A DNA stretch of 64,000 bases, from the NCBI GenBank assembly GCA_016215705.1, contig JACRIR010000130.1:11485-75484 (forward strand). Direction: 5' to 3'. Each line of letters opens with the position of its first letter. Within the stretch, counting starts at the first letter, position 1. The notes below the pieces were generated by a model. The model was not told the DNA's origin, did no database searches, and saw only the letters and a program-made list of their open reading frames with translations. A program made the position numbers and the translations under genes. This document shows positions 21,532 through 27,166 of this stretch, piece by piece. The stretch comes from Candidatus Poribacteria bacterium (GTDB lineage: Bacteria; Abyssobacteria; SURF-5).

Positions 21532-24500
21532 ATGAGCAAAATCACATGGCTGCATCTGTCTGATTTCCATTTCCGGACAGAAGTGAACCCCAACACAAGC
21601 AAGGTTGAGGATTTCAACAGCGAAATTGTCCTTTCGAGTCTGCTTGATGACATCAAGACCTATCCAGCCGAGAATGGGTTCAAGATCGACTTCATAATTA
21701 TCACGGGCGATATCGCTTTTTCCGGACAGCAACACGAATATCGCAAAGCAGAGGAATTTTTGGATGAACTGCTCGGTGCTCTCAAACTCGGAAAGGACCG
21801 TCTTTTTGTCGTGCCGGGCAATCATGATATCGATAGAAGCAAGATCAAGAATTTCCTGAAACCCACTTTGGACAGCGTTGATAATATCAACGGTTTCTTA
21901 ATGGATAGTGAGGCGAAGGCCTTTGTATTTGGAAAGCTTCATTGCTACAAGGACTTTGTAAATAGATATTTAAAAAAGAACCTGAAATTTGACCATGAAA
22001 ACAACTATTTCTGGACGAAGATTCTATCGGTTCGGGGAACAAAGGTCGGGATACTTGGCTTGAACTCGGCATGGAATTCTTGTGGAGACAAAGACGAACG
22101 ACAACTTCTGATTGGCGAAAAGCAAGTGGCCGATGCGCTGAAGCAGGCAGAAGACGCAGATTTGAGAATCGCGGCGTTTCATCATCCTTTTGATTGGCTG
22201 AGAACCGATGACAGGAAGGTGGTTAAGCGGGACCTGGCCGAGAAATGCCATTTTGTCTTGCACGGACACCTGCATGAACCCGACTATAGTCAGGAAATTA
22301 TGGCGGATTCTCGTCTAGTGGTGACCATTCCCGCCGGCGCGTGCTATGACAAACGCCCGTATAGGAATTCATACAACTATGTGAACTTCGACACAGATGC
22401 AAGAAAGGGACAGCTTCGTCTGAGAGCTTATTGTGATAAGTTGAAAGGCTGGGTGGCAGACAACGAAGTATCGAAGAACGCCGAGGATGGTATATGCAAC
22501 ATTGACTTCAACATACGGACAATCAAAGAGCGACATACGCCCCGAAAGCGAGGGAAGCTCGCCGTCTCCTTGGAAATCCCTACCCAATACAGAAACTGGG
22601 TCGACACTCAGTGCGAGATACTGGATATCAAGAAACTGGTGGAAAGCAGAGACACGAAGTTAATCAACCTGGAACTTCCGCAGATATTCATACCGCTTTA
22701 CACAAGCTCCCCTATTGGCAAAAGAAGGGGTAGAAGGCCTCGCCTTGACACCGACGAACAACGAGAACCAGTCGATATTGAGAAACTGGTGACTTCAAGT
22801 GATTACCTGATCATAAGGGGCCAGGCGGGTTCGGGCAAAACGACACTTATGAAGCATATGGCTTACTCCATTATTCACGGGGGCGGCAAGTATGGACTCA
22901 CCGGCTATTTGCCGATTCTGATATTCTTGAGAGACCTGCCCAAATCCGTTACGCAGAACACAGGATCGGTTCCGGGTATGGACGCAGCGGAGAAGATTCT
23001 GACTGAGTACTTTCGAAGTAAGTGTAAGTGCGAAGCACTGAGCATCGAGTTGATCGAGGCGTTTTGTCGCGAAGGCAAAGCCATATTCCTTGTTGACGGT
23101 CTCGATGAAGTCCAGCCGAAGCTTCGGGAATTCATCACTGATTCTCTGGCGGATTTCCGAAGCCCATTCAACGCCACAACGAGTAAGATGGTCTTCTCAG
23201 GCAGACCGCACGGTATTGATGAGGCGGTTAACAGCAAGTTCCCAGGCAAGTGTGTGGATATTAACTCGCTGAATGCGGAGCAGGTGAGAGATTTCATCGA
23301 AAAATGGCTCAGGTGGGACAAGGAGTTGAAAGACAGGGCAAAGACTCCGGAAGACATGTTCGGCGAAATATACGGCCATCAAAGCGCTGAAGAGTTGATA
23401 AGCACGCCCCTTATGTTGACTGCCGCCTGTATTCTCTACCATTACGATAGGAAGCTGCCGGAACAGAGGGCCGAATTGTACGAGAGAATTATCAACAACC
23501 TGATATACAAGCGTTTTGAAAATCCCGTTGAAGCGCTGGACCTGTTGATGAACATAGCCTATAGGACTCATAGCGATAAGAAAAAAGGGTTCAGCAGGAG
23601 ATTTGCGCTCGACCTCATGACGCCCGAACGTCAGAAGAGAAACGACGAAACTGAACGGCAATATGATATAAGAGTAGGTGCGGAGTTTGCTCACATTGAG
23701 CAAGACTGCGGATTGCTCAGGCTCGATAAGGGAGAATACAGCTTCTGGCACTTGAGCTTTCAAGAGTTCCTGGCCGCGAGAGAGATAGCCACCCACAAGC
23801 GGGACTTCACAGGGGCCATTCAAGAATACTGGGACGATGATTGGTTCAACGAAACGCTTCGTTTGTTTATCGGTCATTTGAGCAACACGCATCCGGCCGA
23901 GGCCAACGGCATAGTGGAAGACCAACTGAGAAAAGAAGATCGATCACCTTTCAGGCATTGGCGGCAGGCGGCCAAATCGTTGCTCGATATCTACCCCGCC
24001 ATGAGATACAAGCAAGTCGTCGCTAAGGCCCAAGAGTGCTTGTCGAACATAATCAAGAAAGCAGAAGACCCGAAGGTCCTGGCCGACGCCGGTGAAACGC
24101 TCGGCTGGCTGGGAGATACACGGAATCTGAAGGAGTTTGTGGAAATTCAAGGGGGCCAATACGAGTTGGAGGGACTAGGTAAAACAACTATTAAACCGTT
24201 TGAGATGGCCAAATATCCAGTAACCAATCAGTGGTATGAAGAGTTTATCAAGGCAAATGGATATAAGGAAAAGGAGTTCTGGACACCGAAAGGATGGGAA
24301 TGGCTGAACGAGGGGGAATGCCAGGAGCCTTTCTACTGGCATGATCGAGCCTGGAAATGCCCGAACTCGCCGGTTGTCGGTGTCAGTTGGTATGAAGCGG
24401 AAGCTTTCTGTCGCTGGCTCACTGCAAGAAAGGATGGTTGCTCATACAGGCTGCCGACGGAACAGGAATGGCAGGCGGCCGCAGCCGGTAAAGAAGGGCG

Positions 24501-24801
24501 GGAGTATCCGTGGAAGGGCCGTTGGCGTAAGAATTGCTGCAATACAGATGAGTCCGGTATCGGCAAGACGTCAGCGGTCGGGATTTTTGCCAAAGGCACA
24601 ACGCCGGAAGGTGTGGCCGATTTAGCCGGAAATGTTTGGGAGTGGACCGATAGTTGGTATGATAAGGACAAGGACGCAAAGGTGCTGCGGGGCGGCTCGT
24701 GGGGCGACGGCCGTATCTTTGCCCGGTGTGCGTTCCGTAACTGGTTCAACAGGGCCAACCGGAACTACGTCGTGGGTTTCCGCTGTGCTAGGATCAAATA
24801 A
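21532..24801 (+). CDS. DGR-diversified calcineurin-like phosphoesterase - NACHT NTPase - FGE-sulfatase protein
   Basis: A 1089-aa three-part protein. (1) Residues 4-300 are a calcineurin-like metallophosphoesterase: D11-x-H13 (SDFHF), GD at 59-60, GNHD at 96-99, HH at 217-218 and GHLH at 245-248. (2) Residues about 420-600 are a NACHT-type P-loop NTPase: Walker A GQAGSGKTT (430-438) and Walker B FLVDGLDEVQ (519-528), followed by helical STAND-like sequence to about 860. (3) Residues about 872-1089 are an FGE-sulfatase (formylglycine-generating-enzyme-like, C-type-lectin fold) domain, with PVTNQWYEEF, GVSWYEAEAFCRWL, YRLPTEQEWQ and GNVWEWT. Its last 40 residues are the DGR variable region. By family knowledge the last domain is a ligand-binding display surface here, not an enzyme. 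The role is probably a sensor-switch-effector in signalling or defence. No signal peptide, so cytoplasmic. Less GC-rich than its neighbours. Confidence 0.93.
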   Translation: MSKITWLHLSDFHFRTEVNPNTSKVEDFNSEIVLSSLLDDIKTYPAENGFKIDFIIITGDIAFSGQQHEYRKAEEFLDELLGALKLGKDRLFVVPGNHDIDRSKIKNFLKPTLDSVDNINGFLMDSEAKAFVFGKLHCYKDFVNRYLKKNLKFDHENNYFWTKILSVRGTKVGILGLNSAWNSCGDKDERQLLIGEKQVADALKQAEDADLRIAAFHHPFDWLRTDDRKVVKRDLAEKCHFVLHGHLHEPDYSQEIMADSRLVVTIPAGACYDKRPYRNSYNYVNFDTDARKGQLRLRAYCDKLKGWVADNEVSKNAEDGICNIDFNIRTIKERHTPRKRGKLAVSLEIPTQYRNWVDTQCEILDIKKLVESRDTKLINLELPQIFIPLYTSSPIGKRRGRRPRLDTDEQREPVDIEKLVTSSDYLIIRGQAGSGKTTLMKHMAYSIIHGGGKYGLTGYLPILIFLRDLPKSVTQNTGSVPGMDAAEKILTEYFRSKCKCEALSIELIEAFCREGKAIFLVDGLDEVQPKLREFITDSLADFRSPFNATTSKMVFSGRPHGIDEAVNSKFPGKCVDINSLNAEQVRDFIEKWLRWDKELKDRAKTPEDMFGEIYGHQSAEELISTPLMLTAACILYHYDRKLPEQRAELYERIINNLIYKRFENPVEALDLLMNIAYRTHSDKKKGFSRRFALDLMTPERQKRNDETERQYDIRVGAEFAHIEQDCGLLRLDKGEYSFWHLSFQEFLAAREIATHKRDFTGAIQEYWDDDWFNETLRLFIGHLSNTHPAEANGIVEDQLRKEDRSPFRHWRQAAKSLLDIYPAMRYKQVVAKAQECLSNIIKKAEDPKVLADAGETLGWLGDTRNLKEFVEIQGGQYELEGLGKTTIKPFEMAKYPVTNQWYEEFIKANGYKEKEFWTPKGWEWLNEGECQEPFYWHDRAWKCPNSPVVGVSWYEAEAFCRWLTARKDGCSYRLPTEQEWQAAAAGKEGREYPWKGRWRKNCCNTDESGIGKTSAVGIFAKGTTPEGVADLAGNVWEWTDSWYDKDKDAKVLRGGSWGDGRIFARCAFRNWFNRANRNYVVGFRCARIK
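24680..24793 (+). repeat. DGR variable repeat (VR)
   Basis: 114 bp at the 3' end of the target gene, aligned without gaps to the template repeat at 26258-26371. There are 18 mismatches, all between 24703 and 24770, and every one is opposite a template A. The first 23 and last 23 bases are identical to the template. The mismatches change 11 codons between residues 1058 and 1080 (G1058, D1059, G1060, I1062, F1063, F1068, W1071, F1072, A1075, Y1079, V1080). The identical 3' segment is where the initiation-of-mutagenic-homology element should lie. Confidence 0.97.
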
Positions 24802-24834
24802 TTACGCTTTGCCCTTTTACGCTTTTACCCTTTG

Positions 24835-24851
24835 GGCCGCCGAAGGCGGCC
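24835..24851. other. GC-rich hairpin downstream of the VR
   Basis: GGCCGCC, GAA loop, GGCGGCC: a perfect 7-bp stem 42 bases after the VR and 14 bases before the avd start. DGRs often have a DNA hairpin or cruciform just after the VR that promotes target recognition. The distance here is longer than in the phage BPP-1 example, so the role is uncertain. Confidence 0.5.
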
Positions 24852-24864
24852 GAATTCTCAGAAT

Positions 24865-25203
24865 ATGCCACAAGAAGTAGACGCCATCACCAGGTTGTAT
24901 GATTATGTGCTCTGGCTTATACCCAAGCTCGAGAAGTTTCCTCGGAGCCAGAAGTTCTTGCTGGCCGACCGAATGGAGAATCTGCTGCTGGATATTCTTG
25001 ATCTCCTGATTGAAGCTGCCTATTCCCGCGAGAAATCGGCTTCTTTGAAGGCGGCGAATTTGAAGCTGGAGCAAATGCGATACCTGATAAGGCTTTCGAA
25101 GGACTTGAAGCTAATCGACCTGAAGAGTTATGAATTCTCTGCTCGCGCCATTAATGCCGTCGGGGTTTCCATCGGTGGCTGGCTCAAATACAGCGAACAG
25201 TGA
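24865..25203 (+). CDS. avd: DGR accessory variability determinant (Avd), four-helix-bundle protein
   Basis: A 112-aa, almost wholly helical protein (YDYVLWLIPKLEKFPRSQKF start, KLEQMRYLIRLSKDLKLI third helix, then INAVGVSIGGWLKY). This is the bAvd / 23S-rRNA-intervening-sequence four-helix pattern. Avd forms a basic pentamer that binds the reverse transcriptase and the template RNA and is needed for mutagenic retrohoming. ATG 24865 is chosen; a TTG at 24832 would place the hairpin inside the gene. The stop overlaps the RT start by 4 bp, so the two are translationally coupled. Confidence 0.92.
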   Translation: MPQEVDAITRLYDYVLWLIPKLEKFPRSQKFLLADRMENLLLDILDLLIEAAYSREKSASLKAANLKLEQMRYLIRLSKDLKLIDLKSYEFSARAINAVGVSIGGWLKYSEQ

Positions 25204-26294
25204 AAACGCACAAAAATCTATACAGCGGAATCACCTCCTTTGATAACCTGCTTTTGGCGGCAAGGAAAGCGCAAAGGGGCAAGAGATTCAAAGAGTCTAC
25301 TGCGGTTTTCAATCTGAATCTCGAAAGAGAGCTTTTGTGTATCCAGAAGGAACTGCAGGAGATGACCTACCGGCATGGCGGGTATCAAGATTTCTACGTC
25401 TACGATCCGAAACGGAGGCTGATCAGCGCGGCTCCATACCGGGATCGGATTGTGCATCATGCCCTTTGCAACGTCATAGAACCGATATTTGATCGCATCT
25501 TTATTTACGACACTTACGCCTGTCGAAAACGAAAAGGTGTCCATGCAGCCGTCGATAGATATAACGAATATGCCCGCAAGTACACATATGTGCTGAAATG
25601 CGATATTCGGAAATATTTTCAGAGTGTTGATCACGAGATACTTCTGGAAATGATCTCCCGAAAGATTGCATGCCCACAAACAATGTGGTTGATCACGAAA
25701 ATCATCGCTTCCCGGGACGATAAGAGCCATGTCTCATACTTCGAGAATGATACCCTTTTCACTCCATTCGAGCGGAAAAGAGGAATCCCGATCGGGAATC
25801 TCACCAGCCAATTTTTTGCCAACGTGTATTTGAATGGTTTTGATCATTTCGTAAAGGAGATTCTTGGACAGCCGTACATTCGCTATGTTGACGATTTCGT
25901 TGTGTTCGGGAATTCAAAAGGACGACTGCATGAAGTCAACGAAAAAATACAGGCTTATCTTTCCTCGTTGCGCTTGAACATCCACGAGCGAAAATGCCGG
26001 ATATACAGAGTAAAGGACGGTATTACGTTTCTCGGCTATCGTATTTTCCCAACCCATCGGTTACTCAAGAAAGACAACGTGCTGAGGATGCGGCGAAGGT
26101 TGAAGAAACTCAGCCGTAAATACAGCTCGGGCATGGTTTCGCTTCCGGCAATCAAGCTGAGGATACAAAGTTGGATTGGCCATGCCGGTCATGCCGACAC
26201 ATTTCGGTTGAGAGCAAGAATGCTTGCGGATGCAGTCTTTCAAAGGGGTGAGACCAGAGGTGCTGCGGGGCGGCTCGTGGAACAACAACCGTAA
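25200..26294 (+). CDS. DGR reverse transcriptase
   Basis: A 364-aa RT of the DGR clade. D135 in KCDIRKYF is the first catalytic Asp, and Y229-V-D-D232 (IRYVDDF) is the active-site motif. [18 protein letters not shown] (195-212) has the IGxxxSQ motif that distinguishes DGR enzymes from group II intron and retroviral RTs and is linked to their adenine-specific infidelity. There is no maturase or endonuclease domain. It starts at GTG 25200, overlapping avd. The last 37 bases of the gene lie inside the template repeat, so its C terminus (RLVEQQP) is encoded by the template in another frame. Confidence 0.97.
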
Positions 26295-26371
26295 CAATGC
26301 CCGGTGTGCGAACCGTAACAGGAACAACAGGAACAACCGGAACAACAACGTGGGTTTCCGCTGTGCTAGGA
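26258..26371 (+). repeat. DGR template repeat (TR)
   Basis: 114 bp matching the VR at 24680-24793, offset by exactly 1578 bp. The core 26281-26348 is built of AAC/AAT and AGG codons when read in the VR frame: 14 AAY codons and 2 AGG codons, with 30 adenines. AAY codons are usual in DGR templates because adenine mutagenesis of them can give most amino acids and never a stop. The TR overlaps the 3' end of the RT gene. Confidence 0.97.
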
Positions 26372-26533
26372 CTTGGATTCCTTGGTTGGCGCCGGAGCCT
26401 TGTCTTTCACGGAAGACAAGGGTGTGCGCCATCCAAGTCCAGGTCTCGCTCCTGTGTTGGCTCTCTCGAGCCAACCGAAACAAAAAGCTCCCTGCTCGGG
26501 CTGGTAGCGTATGTGCGAACGCTCGGGCAGGGA
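26369..26533 (+). ncRNA. Structured RNA 3' of the DGR template (probable cDNA-priming region)
   Basis: Five helices can be drawn. H1 26369-26378 with 26431-26440 (10 bp, taking in the last bases of the TR); H2 26388-26392 with 26426-26430; H3 26398-26406 with 26413-26421 (9 bp, 6-nt loop); H4 26456-26463 with 26468-26475 (8 bp, TCTC loop); H5 26489-26495 with 26527-26533, enclosing 26506-26510 with 26519-26523. In the studied phage DGR the RNA just downstream of the TR binds RT-Avd and primes cDNA synthesis. The position here fits. From 26534 to 26803 there is no gene; a 7-bp hairpin (GTCAGAG/CTCTGAC) lies near 26644-26670. Confidence 0.7.
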
Positions 26534-26724
26534 AATATTTCATTGATTTATTCGGGTAACATGCCGTTGAGATGCAGCTCGCAATAAGGATCTATCGATG
26601 CATTCGGCTGAGATTCGTACTATCCAACTAATATGACGGGCAGTCAGAGGACCCGTGTGGTTCTCTGACACCCGGCCTGCCGCTGCGTTCCCCCCTTAAG
26701 ACCGGAAGCCTTCTTCGAGGCCCG

Positions 26725-26767
26725 GCTTATTCGGGGACACCATGCGGCATGGCGTCCCCGAATAAGC
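26725..26767. repeat. REP-like palindrome, copy 3
   Basis: A 43-bp member with arms GCTTATTCGGGGACACCATG and complement (one mismatch) around CGG. Outer GGCCC/GGGCC bases extend the stem. Upstream of yedF. Confidence 0.85.
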
Positions 26768-26803
26768 GGGCCGTTTCGCAGTAGAAGCGGAAGGAGGCTT
26801 TCC

Positions 26804-27166
26804 ATGCCACAAGACTATCAAACGAATTCAGAGGCAGCCGTAATTTTTATTCGCGCAGAGACTATCGGGCGCGGCGATGACGAGATGGGTCTGAACTTGA
26901 TGATGAATTTCATCCACCACCTGAGCAAGGCCGAACCCGGGCCGGGCGCACTCATCGTAATGAACGCGGGCGTCAAACTCGTCATCGAAGGCTCTGAGGT
27001 ACTGGATGATTTGCGCGAACTCGAAAGCAAGGGAACTCGAATTCTCGCCTGCGGGACTTGCCTGAATTTCTATGACGTCAAAGAAAAGCAAAAAGTGGGA
27101 ATCGCATCCAACATGGTTGAAATAACGAAGACACTGCTGGAAGCCAGGAAGGTTGTCACCATCTGA
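26804..27166 (+). CDS. YedF-like DsrE-fold protein (sulfurtransferase-like, selenium-metabolism associated)
   Basis: A 120-aa protein matching the C-terminal DsrE/DsrF-fold domain of YedF. Family features are AETIGRGDDEMG near the N terminus, the NAGVKLVIEGSEVLDDL segment, ILACGTCLNFYDVK with a conserved Cys pair, and SNMVEITKTLL. YedF proteins usually have an N-terminal TusA domain; it is missing here. The start ATG has AAGGAGG upstream. In other genomes YedF occurs with selenium-handling genes; none is seen in this window, so the function is inferred only from family. Confidence 0.82.
   Translation: MPQDYQTNSEAAVIFIRAETIGRGDDEMGLNLMMNFIHHLSKAEPGPGALIVMNAGVKLVIEGSEVLDDLRELESKGTRILACGTCLNFYDVKEKQKVGIASNMVEITKTLLEARKVVTI

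Follow-up and report, generated by a model that had tools for sequence, protein, structure and literature searches.

A conserved RNA fold beginning at the template repeat end of a cellular DGR is a probable counterpart of the BPP-1 spacer RNA

Directly 3′ of the template repeat (TR) of a complete DGR, the window, i.e., the whole 64,000-nucleotide stretch of DNA analysed here, encodes a strongly folded RNA. Its helices are conserved and covary in related DGRs, it is linked to the TR, and its outer helix P1 coincides with the limit of transfer from the TR to the variable repeat (VR). We consider it very probable that this element (26369-26533) forms the 3′ portion of the DGR's template RNA, equivalent to the BPP-1 spacer (Sp), and that it has a role in priming. 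The transcript would comprise avd-RT-TR-Sp, or TR-Sp alone. Its Sp strand would fold onto the TR 3′ end to form P1, an RNA homoduplex, and P1 would position the next nucleotide, A26441, at the template start, where the reverse transcriptase (RT) would begin cDNA synthesis at about T26367. P2-P4 would serve as the scaffold recognised by RT and Avd. The conserved RNA would supply an exact predicted cDNA start and a primer throughout a large group of cellular DGRs.

The DGR in the window consists of a target gene with VR, avd, an RT gene and a TR (Table 1). Its assignment follows from a TR/VR pair that differs solely at template adenines and from the presence of a DGR-type RT together with Avd. 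The RT is a relative of the BPP-1 enzyme, whose structure is available as PDB 8ub7-8ube. The TR/VR identity block covers 117 nt (24677-24793 versus 26255-26371) and stops at 26371, P1 therefore includes the last three TR bases.

Table 1. Features of the DGR and of the RNA fold downstream of its TR (window coordinates)
Feature	Position	Strand	Remarks
Target gene	21532-24801	+	Metallophosphoesterase - NACHT - FGE-sulfatase/C-lectin-type, 1089 aa, C-terminal VR; Pfam PF00149, PF05729, PF03781
VR	24680-24793	+	Template A altered at 18/33; zero non-A changes in 114 nt
Target IMH start (GGAT)	24791-24794	+	Register equals P1 position 0; pairing with Sp strand: GGA plus one G-T
Hairpin 3′ of VR	24835-24851	+	Perfect 7 bp, GGCCGCC-GAA-GGCGGCC; 41 nt past VR end; resembles BPP-1 IMH stem-loop
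avd accessory gene	24832-25203	+	NF033474 DivGenRetAVD, 1e-30; frame as listed, real start possibly further in
DGR RT	25200-26294	+	RVT_1; 48-52% identity to annotated cyanobacterial DGR RTs
TR	26258-26371	+	Overlaps RT gene 3′ end; TR start inside RT gene
Predicted cDNA start	26367-26368	+	First templated base T26367 or A26368, as suggested by the end of TR/VR identity and the rarity of A changes at −1
P1 5′ arm (TR end, IMH*-like)	26369-26378	+	GGACTTGGAT; covariation
P2	26391-26427	+	26391-26392 with 26426-26427, purine-rich internal loop, 26398-26406 with 26413-26421; both-side changes in 11/11 pairs
P1 3′ arm (Sp strand)	26431-26440	+	ATCCAAGTCC; AGTCC end also matches VR IMH in relatives
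Candidate primer nucleotide	26441	+	A; also A in 45/47 relatives; suggested by register with BPP-1 Sp A56
P3 hairpin	26456-26475	+	GTTGGCTC/GAGCCAAC; TCCTGT before, CGAA after; compensatory changes in 5/5 counted pairs
P4	26489-26533	+	13-bp stem 26489-26501 with 26521-26533, internal loop GTAG...CGAA, 26507-26508 with 26515-26516; compensatory changes in 15/15 pairs

An earlier note on this DNA had described a strong fold outside any gene, with a 10-bp helix at the TR boundary that encloses two further helices and is followed by two hairpins. The two arms of the outer helix are indeed perfect complements over 10 bp. The segment 26363-26534 (172 nt) folds with −91 kcal/mol, compared with −61.1 ± 4.3 kcal/mol for dinucleotide shuffles (z −7.0, 0/200), and the minimum-free-energy structure holds the outer helix with a stem nested in it, followed by two more hairpins. 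Both hairpins are conserved in relatives as P3 and P4. One of the enclosed helices is likewise conserved (P2, in two parts), whereas the second was not supported by comparison; additional minimum-free-energy pairs near 26381-26392 are absent from the conserved core. The RNA of P1-P4 is not part of the RT gene (end at 26294), whose 3′ end is overlapped by the TR itself.

The RT was aligned with those of five DGRs from cyanobacterial plasmids, and this alignment led to 80 bacterial-genome loci and 80 viral loci; eight phage loci came from a first scan and BPP-1 from a phage collection. TR/VR pairs were located by a script allowing mismatches mainly at template adenines, and 47 TR-downstream regions were aligned by MAFFT without structure information. 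The evidence is comparative throughout. Over the 40 pairs in P1-P4, 91.6% of the cells in the 47-DGR alignment were paired, versus 64% after shuffling and 32-47% when the pairs were slid by 1-3 columns. Changes on both sides occurred in 37 of the 40 pairs, and compensatory (double-change) cells amounted to 503 against 149 expected, counts that do not represent independent events because the sequences are related. The outer helix singled out in the earlier note covaries also by itself, with 49 double-change cells versus 11.7 after shuffling, although P1 pairing is inflated in this alignment, which was partly selected for detectable P1. RNAalifold gave a structure nearly identical to the proposed fold, and the column pairs with the highest mutual information were located in the P1-P4 helices.

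Since some of the aligned sequences had been picked for P1, 51 loci were taken by the Sp motif alone. The best TR-side partner of the motif lay between about 10 nt upstream and 2 nt downstream of the TR/VR identity end in 39 of them, compared with an expected 11%. With the site set in this way, TR ends also paired better with their own Sp than with those of other loci (15.0 versus 11.2; 0/10000). As in a spacer RNA, a conserved structured RNA is hence found directly 3′ of the TR, and P1 covariation together with the boundary described below points to pairing of an Sp segment with the 3′ end of the TR beside the predicted cDNA start.

This boundary was analysed in 95 TR/VR pairs from 66 loci, with the first base of P1 as position 0. 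Mismatches between TR and VR at bases other than A were at most about 4% at −40 to −2 and reached 16/76 (21%) at 0 and 46/85 (54%) at +1, i.e., the first TR/VR mismatch had its median at +1 and its quartiles at 0 and 1. Template adenines upstream were changed about half the time. At −1, where 77 of 86 RNAs carry an A, it was changed in 7/86. From −16 to −2 the TRs of the relatives contain 2.9% adenine versus 32% further upstream; this A-poor segment is a counterpart of the (GC)14 element of BPP-1, though not strictly G+C. Because TR/VR identity runs to the base before P1 and breaks at the first pairs, P1 likely marks the cDNA start, as judged from sequence.

In BPP-1 the published primer adenine is Sp A56 (A56/G117). 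The spacer segment that it closes forms pairs with the 3′ end of the TR, in a register matching that of P1 in the window, and TR/VR identity in BPP-1 stops at locus base 2335 (TR position 119), again in the register of the relatives. By analogy, A26441 probably primes the cDNA at T26367 or A26368. The earlier note had suggested that a helix placed at the TR boundary could set the cDNA start and that the BPP-1 spacer RNA be compared; the abundant compensatory changes, the limit of TR/VR homogenisation at the first P1 base pairs in 66 DGRs and the shared register of the BPP-1 segment support this suggestion, with priming as the step that we infer.

A 21-bp element within the IMH differs from the TR at five positions, and these mismatches determine in which direction transfer runs (PMC3240598). 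In sequence, the Sp strand is complementary to the IMH across DGRs, often better than to the TR. The VR never entered the alignment or the covariance model R1 of the RNA, and the register was fixed by the RNA model. At positions 0 to 4, Sp paired with the VR in 85, 86, 85, 81 and 73 of 89 pairs, and with the TR in 67, 43, 74, 84 and 84; at +5 to +8 the TR paired with Sp better than the VR. VR-Sp covariation had a z of 9.7, above all 20,000 permutations. BPP-1 behaves alike, its Sp AGGUGGUCA complements the target IMH TGACCACCT at 9/9 bases, and its TR reads TGCCCATCA, with a mismatch to Sp at +1. Two phage groups have similar Sp-IMH pairing with other sequences, in registers chosen after looking and among related members. 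The window departs from this pattern: Sp pairs with its TR throughout, without the +1 mismatch, and its VR (GGATCA) pairs at only three bases plus a wobble. When VR-Sp complementarity was searched unanchored over the whole spacer, two tests lacked power, giving no signal even for the cellular loci, whose fixed register is clear.

The match between Sp and IMH might be an echo, in that Sp pairs with the TR for priming, the VR is homologous to the TR, and the VR bases are kept for an arginine of the protein. Many bases at 0 to 4 are common to TR and VR, and in 61 of 67 cases with a unique frame the VR codon at −1 to +1 is one for Arg. However, where TR and VR differ it is usually the VR that pairs, with VR-only versus TR-only pairing of 22 to 4 at position 0, 43 to 0 at +1 and 15 to 4 at +2. 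Also, the choice between synonymous arginine codons tracks the Sp base: with C in Sp, 36 loci have AGG and one has AGA, with U in Sp, four have AGA and none AGG (p 5e-5). Together with the like pairing of other sequences in BPP-1 and the two phage groups, this makes the echo a rather unlikely explanation, though one to be kept in mind.

We tentatively propose that the priming strand may also be a short guide, an idea from sequence comparison that could well be wrong. The 3′ 5-9 nt of the Sp strand, directly 5′ of the cDNA, would complement the IMH, and the RNA-cDNA chimera could then anneal to exposed target DNA as one continuous antisense strand. The mismatches of the TR (IMH*) near the cDNA start, often at +1, would spare the template from becoming a target. 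The target strand complementary to the cDNA supports stronger homing when it serves as lagging-strand template, and a proposed intermediate is Okazaki-like (PMC12875486); Sp-IMH pairing would make RNA and cDNA a single antisense strand on that template. If true, this would tell what the IMH does in molecular terms and why transfer goes one way, i.e., IMH/IMH* directionality. The pairing rule between spacer RNA and IMH is simple, can be tested by compensatory mutations and would be needed for DGR retargeting. We also considered the VR IMH as a DNA-synthesis copy of the Sp primer strand and rejected this, as it would need T at −1 opposite the primer A, where A was observed (77/86).

The RNA accompanies the TR. 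R1 matched 78 of the 80 related genomic RT loci, many of them outside the training set, and the matches adjoined the TR; in the genome of the window an R1 search found one copy. Two loci (L012 and L085) have the TR inverted relative to the RT, and in both the RNA is likewise on the minus strand, i.e., that of the TR. The RNA thus travels with the TR and not with the RT. In phage loci with the TR before the RT, the R1 match lies between the two. These arrangements speak against the idea that the helices serve to terminate transcription or to stabilise RNA where the avd-RT operon ends, with no role in priming. P4 is a long G+C-rich hairpin that ends the element, and T-runs follow it directly in a few relatives (L023, L025, L041), but no intrinsic terminator, i.e., a G+C-rich hairpin followed by a U-run, was called on the + strand in 24700-26820. 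P1, moreover, contains the TR end and covaries with it, and we regard a terminator or stability element as very unlikely.

Some loci (L042, L028, L034, L059, L075 and others) have clear R1 matches beside the RT and no TR/VR pair in the available stretch; their VR may be remote or lost. In one phage contig (L006:3157-3159) an early stop codon breaks the RT reading frame.

The alignment contained 235 G-U cells and 31 A-C cells, the selected structure is therefore the RNA of the TR strand. That the repeats act as DNA, by forming a cruciform or serving as a recognition site at IMH* in the manner of the hairpin downstream of the VR, is even less probable: the VR in the window has such a hairpin and a DNA hairpin after the IMH matters in BPP-1 (PMC3240598), but the G-U excess indicates pairing maintained in the + strand RNA, and the unpaired motifs GTAG, CGAA and CCAGAG are conserved in the 47-sequence alignment. 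Perfect stems of at least 6 bp were present within 75 nt of the VR in 30 of 94 VRs in the set, many of them G+C-rich.

A search of Rfam with the window element gave no match even at E 10, and the window RNA scored below the gathering thresholds of RF03022 Phage_DGR, the family of the BPP-1 RNA, and of RF02921 RT-14. In six loci (L009, L010, L055, L096, L103, L129), RT-14 and R1 nevertheless matched the same bases. By the sequences of these bridging loci, the window RNA is hence a divergent relative of the RT-14 RNA, and RT-14 a DGR template RNA, which ties this Rfam family to DGRs. RT-14 RNAs share with the window, in order, P1 at the TR end, a GCCAGA inner stem, a small hairpin and a long stem UAGUA...GCGAA. 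In contrast, the window clade is below detection (E 10), has the P1 motif AGTCCAG and different P3/P4 flanks, and carries the RNA usually downstream of the RT.

An R1 search of BPP-1 without filters found no match, and Rfam none in the window; equivalence to the BPP-1 spacer therefore rests on position and order, motifs and register. Like the window RNA, the BPP-1 spacer lies directly 3′ of the TR and has an inner hairpin, an Sp segment with a final A, paired to the TR end, a TCCTG-hairpin-CGAA unit, a last stem with a TA...GAA motif and the same register of the TR/VR identity end. Unlike it, the BPP-1 spacer is located between TR and RT, and its pairing with the TR is shorter and imperfect.

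The cellular DGRs that Dore et al. 2024 (PMC10907252) describe from multicellular bacteria, with NACHT/FGE-sulfatase targets, resemble the DGR in the window in having Avd, NACHT-linked variable targets and a location in cellular genomes, and probably belong to the same RT group. The main text of that study mentions no hairpins or structure 3′ of the TR, its sole stem-loops being MITE-like repeats. The target gene in the window is akin to anti-phage proteins, i.e., its N-terminal part matches NF053861 DS8, below the cut-off. As NACHT and a variable FGE domain are joined to this part, the gene product is, by sequence, a candidate diversified sensor. Between the DGR and the next gene, a near-perfect 24-nt inverted repeat with 1-nt spacing (26722-26770) looks like a strong terminator or the remnant of a small mobile element.
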